This document shows positions 21,367 through 28,212 of a stretch of 32,845 nucleotides of DNA, piece after piece. The number at the start of each line of letters is the position of its first letter. Within the stretch, counting starts at the first letter, position 1. Below the pieces are notes generated by a model. That model was not told the origin of the DNA and searched no databases. It was given only the letters and a program-made list of their open reading frames with translations. Position numbers and translations under genes: made by a program. Source of the DNA: Candidatus Bathyarchaeota archaeon RBG_13_60_20 (GTDB lineage: Archaea; Thermoproteota; Bathyarchaeia; TCS64); contig MEZG01000082.1 in NCBI GenBank assembly GCA_001775965.1, positions 3,471-36,315 of the forward strand, in the 5' to 3' direction.

Positions 21367-21524
21367 TTGGTGTATTAAGGGTTGTGGCCGTGGGCTCCGG
21401 TCGCGTGGATGGCTGCTGTGCACTAAGTGCATCTAATTTATTTTGAATTCATATTAAATATTCGTTGCTAGAAACTAATGGTAAGTCTTAAAACAATAAT
21501 TACTGTCTATACTGTATGATCTAA

Positions 21525-21660
21525 TGTCAGATCACAACCCGCGCAGGGTTACGCCGAGTGAGTTTTCGAACAGTAATCTCTGTCTGGGAACGACGGAAAG
21601 CGCTATGCCCCACGACGGGGTGAACGCCCTGTTGCCATTCAGCAGGGAATGCAAAAAGGA
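21525..21660 (+). ncRNA. Candidate structured 5' leader RNA 1 (unclassified)
   Basis: Shares ordered blocks with 24605-24785; hairpins CCCC-ACGAC-GGGG (21608-21620) and CCCTGTTG-ccatt-CAGCAGGG (21627-21647) just before ATG 21663. Confidence 0.45.
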
Positions 21661-21662
21661 AA

Positions 21663-22451
21663 ATGAACGAGATGTTAATTAAAGATGGACGGATCATAGC
21701 CTTCGTTCTACTGTTTGGCTCTTTTGTCCTCTACTACCTATTCACTAGAATGATGGAGCAAGGTAAGAACTTTAAAATCAGAACATTGGCCCCTCTGGAG
21801 GCGTTGCCTGAGGCTGTCGGCCGGTGCGCCGAGATGGGTAGGCCCATATTCTACATGCCCGGCATCGGTACATCGTTAAGCCTCTCAAGCGGCGCATACA
21901 TTCTGGCAGGCATCACGGTTCTTGGAAGATTAGCCCGCTTTGCGGCCAAAGCAGGTGTAAAGCTCAGACTGTTCACCGTGACGATTGACGCCATGCCCCT
22001 AATACAGGAAACTATCAGGAACGCCTATGCTCTTGAAGGTAAAGTCGAAGAATACAACGACGATGACATTGAGCTAATAGCAAACCAGAGCTCACTGGTA
22101 TCCAGATACATAGGTGCAGTGCAGAGGGAGAACCCGGCCGGCGCATGCCTGATCGGCTACCTCGCATACGAGTCTGTAGTACTTGCAGAAGCAGGCAACC
22201 TCGTAGGCGCCCTGCAGATAAGCGGGACTGTCAACCTGTACCAGATACCCTTCCTCGTAGCGAGCACGGACTACACTCTCATAATGGAGGAGCTGTTCGC
22301 GGCCGCCGCAGCCGTATCGGGCGACGCGGGAGCCGTGGGGCCAATAGCCGCTGAAGACGTGATCAAGCTCGTGTCCCTCGGGATAATGATCCTGGGGATG
22401 ATCCTCGCTCCCATTGGCATCAAGTTCCTGGTGAATCTACTAAGGTTGTGA
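21663..22451 (+). CDS. Membrane protein, DUF6754-like (cassette gene 1)
   Basis: N- and C-terminal TM helices; GRPIFYMPGIGTSLSLSSGAYILAGITVLGRLARFAAKAGVKLRLFTVTIDAMPLIQETIRNAYALEGK. Confidence 0.65.
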   Translation: MNEMLIKDGRIIAFVLLFGSFVLYYLFTRMMEQGKNFKIRTLAPLEALPEAVGRCAEMGRPIFYMPGIGTSLSLSSGAYILAGITVLGRLARFAAKAGVKLRLFTVTIDAMPLIQETIRNAYALEGKVEEYNDDDIELIANQSSLVSRYIGAVQRENPAGACLIGYLAYESVVLAEAGNLVGALQISGTVNLYQIPFLVASTDYTLIMEELFAAAAAVSGDAGAVGPIAAEDVIKLVSLGIMILGMILAPIGIKFLVNLLRL

Positions 22452-22455
22452 TACT

Positions 22456-23085
22456 ATGTCGTTTATCAAATCAACAGCTTTCAAATACATACCTATCCTG
22501 GTATTCGCAATAATCATCGCTGACTACTTCTTCGCGATCTCTGGCTTAGGGTCTATCGCTGAGGCGTTAAGGCAGTTCGCTGTGGTGATCTCAAACATAG
22601 CTCTAGGACTGGGCGTCATCAGCCTGCTAAAGATTCACGGGAAAAACGTGCAGAGAAGAGTGGAGGGAAGATGGCTGTACAGCATAGTGACTATAGTAAC
22701 ATTCCTCACGGTGTTCATACTGGGCTTAATCAACACGAATGGCGAACAGTACCAGTGGGCATTCAGAAACGTGTACACCACCTTGGAGCAAACAATGTAC
22801 GCGAGCACGGGGTTCTTCATAGTATCCTCAGCCTACCGAGCCTTCAGAGCCAGGAACATTGACGCAGCTCTGCTTCTCATATCTGGGTGCATCGTGGTCT
22901 TCACCAATGCTCCTATCGGAGAGGTGATCTGGTCAGGGTTCCCCGTCATCGGCGACTGGCTGCTTGGACCAGGCCAGCTACCTGGATACAGGGTCCTAAT
23001 GCTGATCGCAGGTTTCGGTACAATCGTGTACGCCTACAGAGTGATCACCGGTAACGAGAGAGGCTTCTTCGGAGGAGGGGAGTAA
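22456..23085 (+). CDS. Multi-TM membrane protein (cassette gene 2)
   Basis: 209 aa, hydrophobic; 4-nt gap to gene 1, directly abuts gene 3. Confidence 0.65.
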   Translation: MSFIKSTAFKYIPILVFAIIIADYFFAISGLGSIAEALRQFAVVISNIALGLGVISLLKIHGKNVQRRVEGRWLYSIVTIVTFLTVFILGLINTNGEQYQWAFRNVYTTLEQTMYASTGFFIVSSAYRAFRARNIDAALLLISGCIVVFTNAPIGEVIWSGFPVIGDWLLGPGQLPGYRVLMLIAGFGTIVYAYRVITGNERGFFGGGE

Positions 23086-23913
23086 ATGGCCAACCAAACT
23101 ATCTTTGATAGACTGGACAAGCTTGACCGGAGAGTCTACTACTGGCTCATCGTCCTCGTCATAACTTGGCCTCTGATATCTCCCATAGGACTGCCGATCA
23201 CCATTAAGCCCTCGACTAGGGCTCTATACGGCGGCCTGCAGACAGTTCAAGAAGGCGACGTTGTACTCATTGACATCTTCATGAGCGTAAGCACGTGGCC
23301 GGAGTGCATGGGAGGGCTAGTCGTAGAGACTAACACACTCATAGACCGAGGCGCAAGGCTTGTGTACATGGGGAACAGCGTGGATGTGGCTAGGTCCTGG
23401 GATCGTTTGAAAGAGCTAGTGCCAAAGCTTCAGACCCTTGAATACGGTGAAGACGTGGTTTTCCTAGGCTACTATGCCGGAGAGGATGCCGCAGCGGCTC
23501 AGATGGCTGTTGACATGAGCAGTGTCTTCCCAGCCGACCACTACGGGAGACCCATAGCGGAAATCCCCCTGATGAGTGACGCCAACCGCGCAGCAGACTT
23601 CGCAATGGTGTTATTCACAGCGGAGGGCGAGGTGAAGTGGATCCAGCAGTGGGGAGCAGCCTACGGCGTCCCGGTTGCAGGTATGGGCATCGCGATGAAG
23701 GGCTCAGCCCTAGCGCCCTACCTCGCCAGCGGGGACATCTTCGGCTTAGCAGTCGGAGTGAGAGGGGCAGCCGAGCTGGAGGCGCTCGCCGGTATGCCCG
23801 CCGCAGCCACGAAAACAATGGATGCCATTAGCTCCACGCACCTACTCTTCGTGATACTGATCATCCTAGCTAACCTGCCAGTAATATACAGCAAGATAAA
23901 GGGAGGAAACTGA
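23086..23913 (+). CDS. Protein with N- and C-terminal TM helices and a ~200-aa soluble domain (cassette gene 3)
   Basis: 275 aa; YYWLIVLVITWPLISPIGLPI TM, soluble region, LLFVILIILANLPVIYS TM. Confidence 0.65.
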   Translation: MANQTIFDRLDKLDRRVYYWLIVLVITWPLISPIGLPITIKPSTRALYGGLQTVQEGDVVLIDIFMSVSTWPECMGGLVVETNTLIDRGARLVYMGNSVDVARSWDRLKELVPKLQTLEYGEDVVFLGYYAGEDAAAAQMAVDMSSVFPADHYGRPIAEIPLMSDANRAADFAMVLFTAEGEVKWIQQWGAAYGVPVAGMGIAMKGSALAPYLASGDIFGLAVGVRGAAELEALAGMPAAATKTMDAISSTHLLFVILIILANLPVIYSKIKGGN

Positions 23914-23914
23914 A

Positions 23915-24550
23915 ATGGCGTACCCGACTGAGATATGGGGGCTACTCGGGCTGTGGGTGGGCGCTGTTCTCACAGTAGCCATCTACAGCTACATGCTGTA
24001 CAAAGAAAACCCACTCTACAGGCTGGCTGAACACATCTACATCGGCATCGCCTTTGCAATTACAGCCATTGTCGCGGTTCAGAACACGAACAGGATCGCG
24101 ATAACCCCGCTACTGAAAGGACAGTACATGTTCATCATACCCATACTCCTTGGCCTAGGTATGTACACCGTCTTCGTAGAAAAGTATAGGTGGATATCAA
24201 GGTACTCGATCGCTACCCTTGTAGGGGTGATGCTGGGCGTAGTGACCAGCGGCACCTTGGTGCCTAACCTCATCAACCAGATAAACTCCACCATCACCGC
24301 ACCGTCAGGCTCGTCTACGATGGATTGGCTGAACTTCCTCTACGTAGGAATCGGCACAATATGCGCTCTATCCTACTTCCTATTCACGAGAGAACACACG
24401 GGCGTACTAGCACCCACGGCTAGACTAGGGCGGCTCATCATAATGGTTGGCCTAGGCGTGATGTTCGGCAACACCGTGCTTTTCAGGATGTCTATGCTCT
24501 CAGGCAGAATCGAGTATCTACTCCAAGTACTAAAGATACTGCCAATGTAG
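23915..24550 (+). CDS. Multi-TM membrane protein (cassette gene 4)
   Basis: 211 aa, hydrophobic; 1-nt gap to gene 3; followed by cccctttttttt. Confidence 0.65.
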   Translation: MAYPTEIWGLLGLWVGAVLTVAIYSYMLYKENPLYRLAEHIYIGIAFAITAIVAVQNTNRIAITPLLKGQYMFIIPILLGLGMYTVFVEKYRWISRYSIATLVGVMLGVVTSGTLVPNLINQINSTITAPSGSSTMDWLNFLYVGIGTICALSYFLFTREHTGVLAPTARLGRLIIMVGLGVMFGNTVLFRMSMLSGRIEYLLQVLKILPM

Positions 24551-24558
24551 AATGAATT

Positions 24559-24571
24559 CCCCTTTTTTTTA
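24559..24571 (+). terminator. Candidate oligo-T terminator after the membrane cassette
   Basis: cccctttttttt shortly after the last stop codon. Confidence 0.5.
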
Positions 24572-24604
24572 ATGGAGGCATCCCCATAATATGCTTAACT
24601 CGTG

Positions 24605-24785
24605 CTGAGGGATCGCCAGAAACCTACCTCAGGGTATGGTACGCTGGAACGCACTTACCCCCACGACGGGGGGAAGGCCTTCATGGCGAGAGGTGGAAAT
24701 CTAGGTGAAAGCCAAGCCCCCTTTCCCCGTAGACGTTATGTGTCTAGCCTGCCACAGGCTGGCTTGCTTCAGGTATTCTACCCGC
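24605..24785 (+). ncRNA. Candidate structured 5' leader RNA 2 (unclassified)
   Basis: TATA-like cataatatgcttaa ~24587-24600; blocks CAGGGT, TACGC, GGAACG, CCCCACGACGGGG, GAAGGCC in the same order as RNA 1; TCGCCA/TGGCGA closing stem (24613-24618/24684-24689); hairpin CTAGCCTG-cca-CAGGCTGG (24744-24762). Confidence 0.5.
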
Positions 24786-24822
24786 CGTTTTGAAGGAATG
24801 TACAGTTGGAGGAATCATATTG

Positions 24823-25875
24823 TTGACGGATGAAGAAATCGATAAAATCGCTGAAAAAGTGTTGAAGAAACTAGTGATAAATGGAATGGAGTATGGGCCA
24901 CTGGCCCATATGCACGCGGCCACCCAGATGATGGTAGACGACGTTCTATGGTACCATAGAGTCGGCGGCATCGCATGTATCGACAAGGTTACCTTAACGG
25001 GCCCGCCTTCTCAGTACCAGCCCAGCTCAACGGCTCAGGGGGCAGGTAACCGAGTCACATTTGCGGCATACACGTTTGTCCCAAGAAGCCTTAAGGACGG
25101 AGAGAAAAGCCCGCTCATCGTCTTACCTCACGGGGGCGTACACTCTAACTTTAGCTCAATGGCTTCAAACGTAATAAGAGAGCTCGTCGAACAAGGATAC
25201 GTTGTGGTGGCGCCAGAGTATCGGGGCAGCACCGGGTACGGTAAAGAATTCTATGAGTTAATCGACTACGGCGGACTAGAGTCGGAGGACACCTACGAGT
25301 CCAGGAACTTCATGGTTGACAACTGTGACAGCGTAGACTCAGAGAGGGTGGGTATAATGGGGTGGAGCCACGGCGGGATGCACACCCTGTTCAACATATT
25401 CAACCACCCCGAGGACTACCAGGCGGCTCACGCGTCTGTGCCTGTAAGCGACGTCGTGGCCAGGATGGGCTACAAGTCGCAGGGCTACAGAGACCTGTTC
25501 GAGGCGGGGTACCACGTCGGTAAGAGCGCGAACGATGACTACGCTAACTATAAGCGGAGGTCTCCTGCCTGGAATGTCCCAGAGTACAAGCCGGGTGTAC
25601 ACCCCCCTCTGCTTGTTCACTCCACAGAGAATGACCAGGACGTCAATGTGTTAGAGGTGGAACACATGGTAAAATCGCTGAAATCCATGAACTGGGTCTT
25701 TGACCACAAGATCTACCCGCCTACGCCTGGGGCCCACGGCTTCAGCAGACTCGATGACAGGTTCTCGAAAGGGGTCCGCGGCGAGATATACGAGTTCCTG
25801 GCTAAACACCTTGATCCCCCAGGGGAGAACCCTGTGAAACGATACATAGGCACGCCAAACCCTCTTACCCCCTAA
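24823..25875 (+). CDS. Prolyl oligopeptidase-family serine hydrolase (alpha/beta hydrolase, S9-like)
   Basis: YVVVAPEYRGSTGYGKEFYE, GIMGWSHGGMHTLFN (GxSxG), LLVHSTENDQDVNVLEVEHMVKSL, PGAHGF His region; TTG at 24823 after ggagg. Confidence 0.88.
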   Translation: MTDEEIDKIAEKVLKKLVINGMEYGPLAHMHAATQMMVDDVLWYHRVGGIACIDKVTLTGPPSQYQPSSTAQGAGNRVTFAAYTFVPRSLKDGEKSPLIVLPHGGVHSNFSSMASNVIRELVEQGYVVVAPEYRGSTGYGKEFYELIDYGGLESEDTYESRNFMVDNCDSVDSERVGIMGWSHGGMHTLFNIFNHPEDYQAAHASVPVSDVVARMGYKSQGYRDLFEAGYHVGKSANDDYANYKRRSPAWNVPEYKPGVHPPLLVHSTENDQDVNVLEVEHMVKSLKSMNWVFDHKIYPPTPGAHGFSRLDDRFSKGVRGEIYEFLAKHLDPPGENPVKRYIGTPNPLTP

Positions 25876-27753: not shown

Positions 27754-28212
27754 TTATGGAAAATCAAGGAAGGCAATGCTTCTGTTTGGATTGTATACCA
27801 AAGTGACATCTTGTTCAGTAAGCCAATTCAAACCAACTATACTGGGTATATGCTGAGTATCTCTCATTGTTTGTTTATTTACCTTCGTGGGGGTCAACAA
27901 CTGCACAGTATCAGTCGTAACATGATAGTGTTCATCCTTATCGTCTGTAAGTGTTAGAGTAGCCTTGTCTAAAGGAAATTTTTTAAACAAAAACCCTGCT
28001 AGTTGAACCGTTTTCGCTTTTTGCCTCGCATATCGTTTTAGAGGAATTCTAAATCTAATCCCATCTCTTGGCGCAAGAACTGTGAATGGGCTGCCTGTGT
28101 CTACAAGTAATTGAATTTGGCCGGCAATCGTCCCTAAACGTATGAATGCTGGAAGAAAAATGAATTTTTCTTCCGAAGCAAACTTTCTCACCTGTAAAGG
28201 GACTCGGAACAT
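27754..28212 (-). CDS. Retropepsin-like aspartyl protease
   Basis: IQLLVDTGSPFTVLAP (DTG motif), later SIVGLNWLTEQDVTLVYNP. Confidence 0.75.
   Translation of the reverse strand: MFRVPLQVRKFASEEKFIFLPAFIRLGTIAGQIQLLVDTGSPFTVLAPRDGIRFRIPLKRYARQKAKTVQLAGFLFKKFPLDKATLTLTDDKDEHYHVTTDTVQLLTPTKVNKQTMRDTQHIPSIVGLNWLTEQDVTLVYNPNRSIAFLDFP

Follow-up and report, generated by a model that had tools for sequence, protein, structure and literature searches.

The same small folded RNA probably lies as a control element ahead of two neighbouring genes of a bathyarchaeal genome and is kept in close relatives

Do two adjacent units of Candidatus Bathyarchaeota archaeon RBG_13_60_20 carry the same leader, and does that leader act as RNA? 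The question is raised by a stretch of 32,845 nucleotides (the window; source assembly G000, 1.2 Mb, unfinished, 64% complete), in which one leader (leader 1) lies upstream of a four-gene DUF6754 membrane cassette (genes A to D), and another (leader 2) upstream of an S9 hydrolase gene. A sequence-only reading had found an ordered set of short blocks in both leaders and proposed a cis-regulatory RNA or riboswitch linking the two units. We compared the window with L003, a contig of the syntenic relative Bathyarchaeota QDN_4, which encodes the cassette and the hydrolase at 75-81% protein identity. By this comparison the true starts are probably ATG 21672 (DUF6754) and TTG 24820 (hydrolase). Since a T-run follows the last cassette gene, gene D, the hydrolase is probably its own unit. 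For both genes the leader occupies the 5' UTR position, on the same strand and by the start codon, transcription being predicted (Table 1); the two stretches would be the 5' ends of two separate mRNAs, acting in cis as structured leaders.

All five strings of the proposed block set were found in both leaders, and the hairpin sequence CCCCACGACGGGG, said to be unique to them, occurs exactly twice in the whole 1.2-Mb assembly (none on the reverse strand, and none for a reversed-pattern control). The shared element is therefore real, but three of the five blocks (CAGGGT, TACGC and GGAACG) are chance matches: CAGGGT and TACGC are missing from leader 2 of L003 and lie within a variable hairpin in leader 2 of the window, while in leader 1 of the window GGAACG forms the 3' arm of a variable hairpin and is not found in leader 1 of L003. 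The blocks that are kept in all four copies (leaders 1 and 2 of the window and of L003) are CYCGYGC-nGRGG, GGAAMGCRCU and CCCCACRACGGGG-KGAnnGC; another conserved block, GRAUGYA, lies near the start codon. The sequence between blocks is indeed unrelated and variable, as the intervening hairpins differ in sequence between the window and L003. Local alignment of leaders 1 and 2 of the window gave 42 columns and a score of 34, which narrowly exceeded all of 1000 dinucleotide shuffles (best shuffle 33); the corresponding score in L003 was 30, equalled by 3 of 1000 shuffles. The sharing is real, but modest taken alone.

Table 1. Features of the two leaders and the adjoining genes (window coordinates).
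Feature	Position	Strand	Basis or remark
Candidate TATA box, leader 1, CTATACTG	21507..21514	+	Motif scoring, weak match; 31 nt before CCCGCGC
5' block, leader 1, CCCGCGC-AGGGT	21538..21549	+	GCGC 21541-21544 = P1 5' strand
Variable hairpin P1b, leader 1	21562..21591	+	z -0.9 in window; z -3.8 in L003, unrelated sequence
Conserved GGAAAGCGCU, leader 1	21595..21604	+	Alignment; GCGC 21600-21603 = P1 3' strand
Hairpin P2, leader 1, G-CCCC-ACGAC-GGGG-U	21607..21621	+	Pair probability 0.79; two exact genome copies
Hairpin P3, 8 bp, ahead of start codon, leader 1	21627..21647	+	z -3.0
3' element GGGAAUGCAAAAA, leader 1	21645..21657	+	Kept in both L003 leaders and in G249 leader 2
Possible small upstream ORF MPHDGVNALLPFSRECKKENERDVN	21605..21682	+	Open also in L003; frame closed in L003 leader 2
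DUF6754 protein, cassette gene A	21672..22451	+	PF20539, E 4e-60; probable start inferred from L003
Membrane cassette genes B, C, D	22456..24550	+	22456-23085, 23086-23913, 23915-24550
Candidate TATA box, leader 2, TTTTAATG	24567..24574	+	32 nt before CUCGUGC; overlaps U-tract after gene D
5' block, leader 2, CUCGUGC-UGAGGGA	24599..24612	+	Near-identical in L003; GUGC 24602-24605 = P1 5' strand
Variable hairpin P1b, leader 2	24616..24647	+	z -2.0 in window; z -3.6 in L003, unrelated sequence
Conserved GGAACGCACU, leader 2	24646..24655	+	GCAC 24651-24654 = P1 3' strand
Hairpin P2, leader 2, CCCCC-ACGAC-GGGGG	24658..24672	+	Pair probability 0.75
3' element AAGGAAUGUACA, leader 2	24793..24804	+	Aligned by position with GGGAAUGCAA of L003
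S9-type serine hydrolase	24820..25875	+	Peptidase_S9, E 4e-31; probable start TTG 24820 behind GGAGG
Blocks of the sequence-only reading, leader 1	21544-21549, 21550-21554, 21587-21592, 21608-21620, 21622-21628		String search
Blocks of the sequence-only reading, leader 2	24630-24635, 24640-24644, 24646-24651, 24659-24671, 24673-24679		String search

Both leaders are kept in QDN_4. The leader 1 stretch GACGGAAAGCGCUAUGCCCCACRACGGGGUGAAYGCCC has only 2 differences in ~38 positions between the window and L003, whereas the adjoining upstream sequence is unrelated, and leader 2 shows the same contrast between a conserved core and an unrelated flank. The 5' block of leader 1 is likewise kept in leader 1 of L003, and both copies of leader 2 have it in the form CUCGUGC-nGAGGG. 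Two copies 3 kb apart at one locus could be the leftover of a duplication, without present function, but so few differences in the leader 1 core next to unalignable flanks, and the retention of both copies in both genomes, make this highly improbable.

Searched with a covariance model built from the four copies, the 257 genomes of the class gave the same four and a single further copy, which precedes the hydrolase orthologue of a third genome, G249 (E 4e-5). This copy has only the 3' half of the element: P2, the linker, the third hairpin and GAAUGCAAAAAG are kept, and P1 is not clearly kept. The element is thus found in three genomes of one genus among the 257. The hairpin pattern was not found in the other 397 of 398 genomes drawn from the phylum, and the leader was not found upstream of more distant S9 orthologues (G242, G238). 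A laxer search of the order returned additional weak matches to the covariance model (E 0.003-0.1), which we took as chance; those that were read lie in, or resemble, coding DNA, some of them in M20-type genes with PHxGxNAL. Two matches of the hairpin pattern on viral contigs look unrelated.

Rfam gave no match in the window at the gathering threshold, nothing credible in the leaders at E up to 10, and nothing credible in L003 and L082 at E up to 1, in agreement with the earlier statement that the blocks form no recognised riboswitch. The crcB (fluoride) and TPP riboswitches are classes known from archaea (PMC2864571) and are likewise structured 5' UTR elements; unlike them, the leaders described here match no Rfam family. 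The earlier distinction from guanidine-II also held. That motif (mini-ykkC) consists of two hairpins with ACGR tetraloops (PMC5486947), and the leaders resemble it in having a GC-rich hairpin whose loop contains ACG(A). However, each leader has one CCCC-N5-GGGG hairpin rather than two linked similar hairpins, and the loop is a pentamer, ACGAC, rather than an ACGR tetraloop with its binding guanine; in leader 1 of L003 the loop is ACAAC, with A in place of that guanine. The existence of a conserved, undescribed and lineage-restricted element is well supported.

That the element acts as RNA is moderately supported. P1 pairs GCGC with GCGC in leader 1 and GUGC with GCAC in leader 2, which is one compensatory change from C-G to U-A. 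The closing pair of P2 changes from G-U to C-G and is lost in one sequence. In P3, seven of the eight pairs are common to the window and L003, with one G-C to U-A exchange and one pair lost. The covariation score of the four sequences, with double changes at two pairs, was reached by 43 of 500 shuffles. Because only five copies in three genomes are available, with two or three double changes, the covariation is far from significant and only suggestive. Of the two signs by which the proposal could be judged, homologous leaders thus share core blocks, and covariation is minimal.

Predicted folding agrees in part. P2 forms with pair probabilities of 0.36-0.79 across all five copies, and the P1b hairpins fold in both the window and L003 despite unrelated sequence. 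P3 was predicted with z of -3.0 in the window, -2.9 in L003 and -3.9 in leader 2 of G249. An 8-bp hairpin close to each start codon had been reported; that of leader 1 is real and kept in L003, but that of leader 2 is not kept there. As a whole, leader 1 is mildly more stable than shuffled sequences (z -1.4) and leader 2 is not (z -0.8). Leader 1 also has an alternative fold: its 5' block can pair with both arms of P2 to give a long rod, which competes with the local P2 hairpin. The rod is the minimum free energy structure, but the local hairpin prevails when the folded fragment is slightly longer. The two folds exclude each other, have similar predicted energies and could be two states of the leader.

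The hairpin could also be read at the DNA level, with CCCC-N5-GGGG as an inverted-repeat transcription-factor site that controls both promoters. The near-palindromic 13-mer is more strictly conserved than the remainder, and in leader 2 of G249 it lies near a TATA-like CTTAAG. This sequence is only 15-17 nt before P2, so part of P2 would fall outside the RNA, which counts against an RNA leader. In G249, the cassette and hydrolase leaders share a different, 65-nt block, CGGCCAGNCGGG...GGGCCGGCAAYAC (L082:1-66 and L082:3806-3872), the 3' half of which recurs in QDN_4 (L083:607-646) upstream of a paralogous cassette, which is followed by an amidohydrolase gene. This block is possibly an upstream promoter element, and since it may lie upstream of the TATA box it is a further point for an operator. 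However, the TATA candidate of leader 1 lies ~100 nt upstream of the site, the conservation around the palindrome is asymmetric, and an RNA-level cause is needed for the compensatory change in P1 and for the variable hairpins at matching positions. Control by a DNA operator is unlikely but a serious alternative, above all for the position of CTTAAG in G249.

An upstream ORF is a very unlikely explanation of the conserved stretch. In leader 1 the stretch could encode a peptide, MPHDGVNA...ECKK, ahead of and overlapping the DUF6754 gene; L003 has MPHNGVNA...ECKK, with five of nine changed codons synonymous, and leader 2 of G249 reads PHDGVIA...ECKK in frame with the hydrolase. However, G249 lacks the ATG, and a 25-codon frame is open by chance ~30% of the time. 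Leader 2 of L003 has an in-frame TAA directly before the motif, and the frame is shifted by 2 nt between two copies of leader 2, so coding cannot explain leader 2.

Further evidence for RNA comes from other cassettes. DUF6754 is a multi-copy family present in 46 of the 257 genomes of the class, and the A-B-C-D gene order recurs in nearly all cassettes examined. The cassettes nearest to that of the window have leaders of other sequence, each predicted to form one long hairpin (z -2.3 to -7.3, with ends chosen by hand). In a scan of uniform 90-nt windows, the median best z was -3.24 for 14 upstream regions of this clade and -1.30 for 33 other DUF6754 cassettes (Mann-Whitney p 5e-6, relatedness ignored). 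One upstream region, L148, reached only -1.7 in the uniform scan, and because several non-clade cassettes are also near -3 the contrast is a statistical one. In the protein A tree, the 13 group members that were included form one clade (support 100/99). Forty cassettes added later contained two new clear members of the clade, from another family, with a 14-bp hairpin in the same place (z -3.8 and -4.6), so that structured clade leaders occur in two archaeal families; L180 and L183 of this set repeat the sequences of L005 and L004, and L201, with 39% identity and the same bit score against both groups, was ambiguous and was not counted as a blind success.

In 13 of the 14 clade leaders, a predicted TATA box precedes the hairpin by 30-35 nt. 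In leader 1 the predicted TATA box lies 30-31 nt before CCCGCGC in both the window and L003, where the counterpart candidate is TTTATATC at 30 nt; the leader 2 candidate is not clearly conserved in L003. By this spacing, the structure should begin near the transcript start, all starts being predicted ones. Folding was better for the sense strand than for the antisense strand in 13 of 16 leaders (p 0.002), as expected from selection on RNA with G-U pairs and not on DNA. Since the rod clade lacks the P2 core, the rods are linked to the core by position and not by sequence. Leader 1 is a lineage-specific form of the structured 5' end of this clade and is part of a broader set of archaeal leaders that has not been described.

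In a metabolite riboswitch, small-molecule binding by the core and its GGG-CCC pseudoknot would free or form P3. The conserved unpaired residues (internal loop, ACRAC loop and KGAnnGC) next to variable helices, the same core ahead of two genes, and the ability of the leader 1 CCC to pair with an upstream or a downstream GGG are in keeping with it. We rejected the pseudoknot: it is pairable in four copies, but its GGG columns do not align and show no covariation. In addition, P3 leaves the ribosome site uncovered, the distribution is very narrow, and nothing points specifically to a small-molecule ligand. Such a riboswitch is distinctly unlikely. Of the original proposal, then, a conserved and probably structured element ahead of two units stands, while its small-molecule part has found no pointer.

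Our preferred reading, to which we assign a probability of about 45%, is that a cis-acting 5'-terminal leader RNA sets the stability or translation of the mRNA, and that the shared hairpin couples the two units as a recognition site present in each. A structured 5'-terminal leader would be an old property of this DUF6754 cassette clade and would most likely set mRNA lifetime and translation by keeping the 5' end concealed and giving shape to the sequence ahead of the ribosome site. Beta-CASP nuclease relatives are encoded in all 32 genomes of the order, some of them of the size of aCPSF2, which is a 5'-3' exoribonuclease in Sulfolobus (PMC3792030). The lineage of the window would then have gained the recognition core, namely P1 with its internal loop, the CCCC-ACRAC-GGGG hairpin and the KGAnnGC linker. 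With the same core before the hydrolase, one factor could control both units together. The narrow distribution and the uncovered ribosome site make a protein the first guess, so this factor would more likely be an RNA-binding protein than a metabolite. A bolder version, in which older undescribed 5'-terminal rod leaders gave rise to an archaea-specific RNA switch, the core, that senses a ligand or a protein and couples the cassette to the hydrolase, seems to us rather improbable.

Parallels are known from bacteria. The leaders of E. coli ompA and papA and of B. subtilis aprE are 5'-terminal stem-loops that stabilize the mRNA (cited in PMC3997798). As in these, the hairpin of a surface or membrane gene would lie at the 5' end of the mRNA or close to it, variable in sequence and fixed in position. 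In contrast to them, the leaders described here are archaeal, with longer, clade-specific rods, and the window copies carry an additional conserved core common to two genes; a stabilizing effect would be by analogy.

Several observations concern the proteins and the surrounding genes. The structure model of protein A (DUF6754; pLDDT 93.6) had no significant fold match in the PDB. The models of proteins A and C are both confident (pLDDT 94), and in each an N-terminal and a C-terminal helix flank an alpha/beta soluble domain; a comparison of A with C by hhalign gave a probability of only 12%. No paper naming DUF6754 was found in the literature library searched. In the rod-leader cassettes, a fifth gene with a DUF483 domain (L119:1314-2198, E 3.5e-11; same position in L117, L123, L127 and L116) occupies the slot that the S9 hydrolase has in the window and QDN_4. 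The minus strand of the window encodes four PIN-domain proteins (PF01850; 18369-18788, 20704-21120, 29183-29587 and 30486-30905), of which the first and the last resemble duplicates. A small ORF overlaps or adjoins the PIN gene in all three cases whose upstream side was checked, and the four are candidates for a cluster of VapBC-like toxin-antitoxin systems. Also on the minus strand, a small protein (27754-28212) has a VDTGSPFT motif, typical of retropepsin-like aspartic proteases, and has no Pfam match.

To our knowledge, few cis-regulatory leader RNAs are known in archaea. A core common to two neighbouring units, together with a structured 5' end across the clade, makes a compact test set for archaeal post-transcriptional control, and the shared core ties an uncharacterised membrane cassette to a hydrolase. 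Two neighbouring genes are probably preceded here by the same small folded-RNA control element, kept in close relatives.
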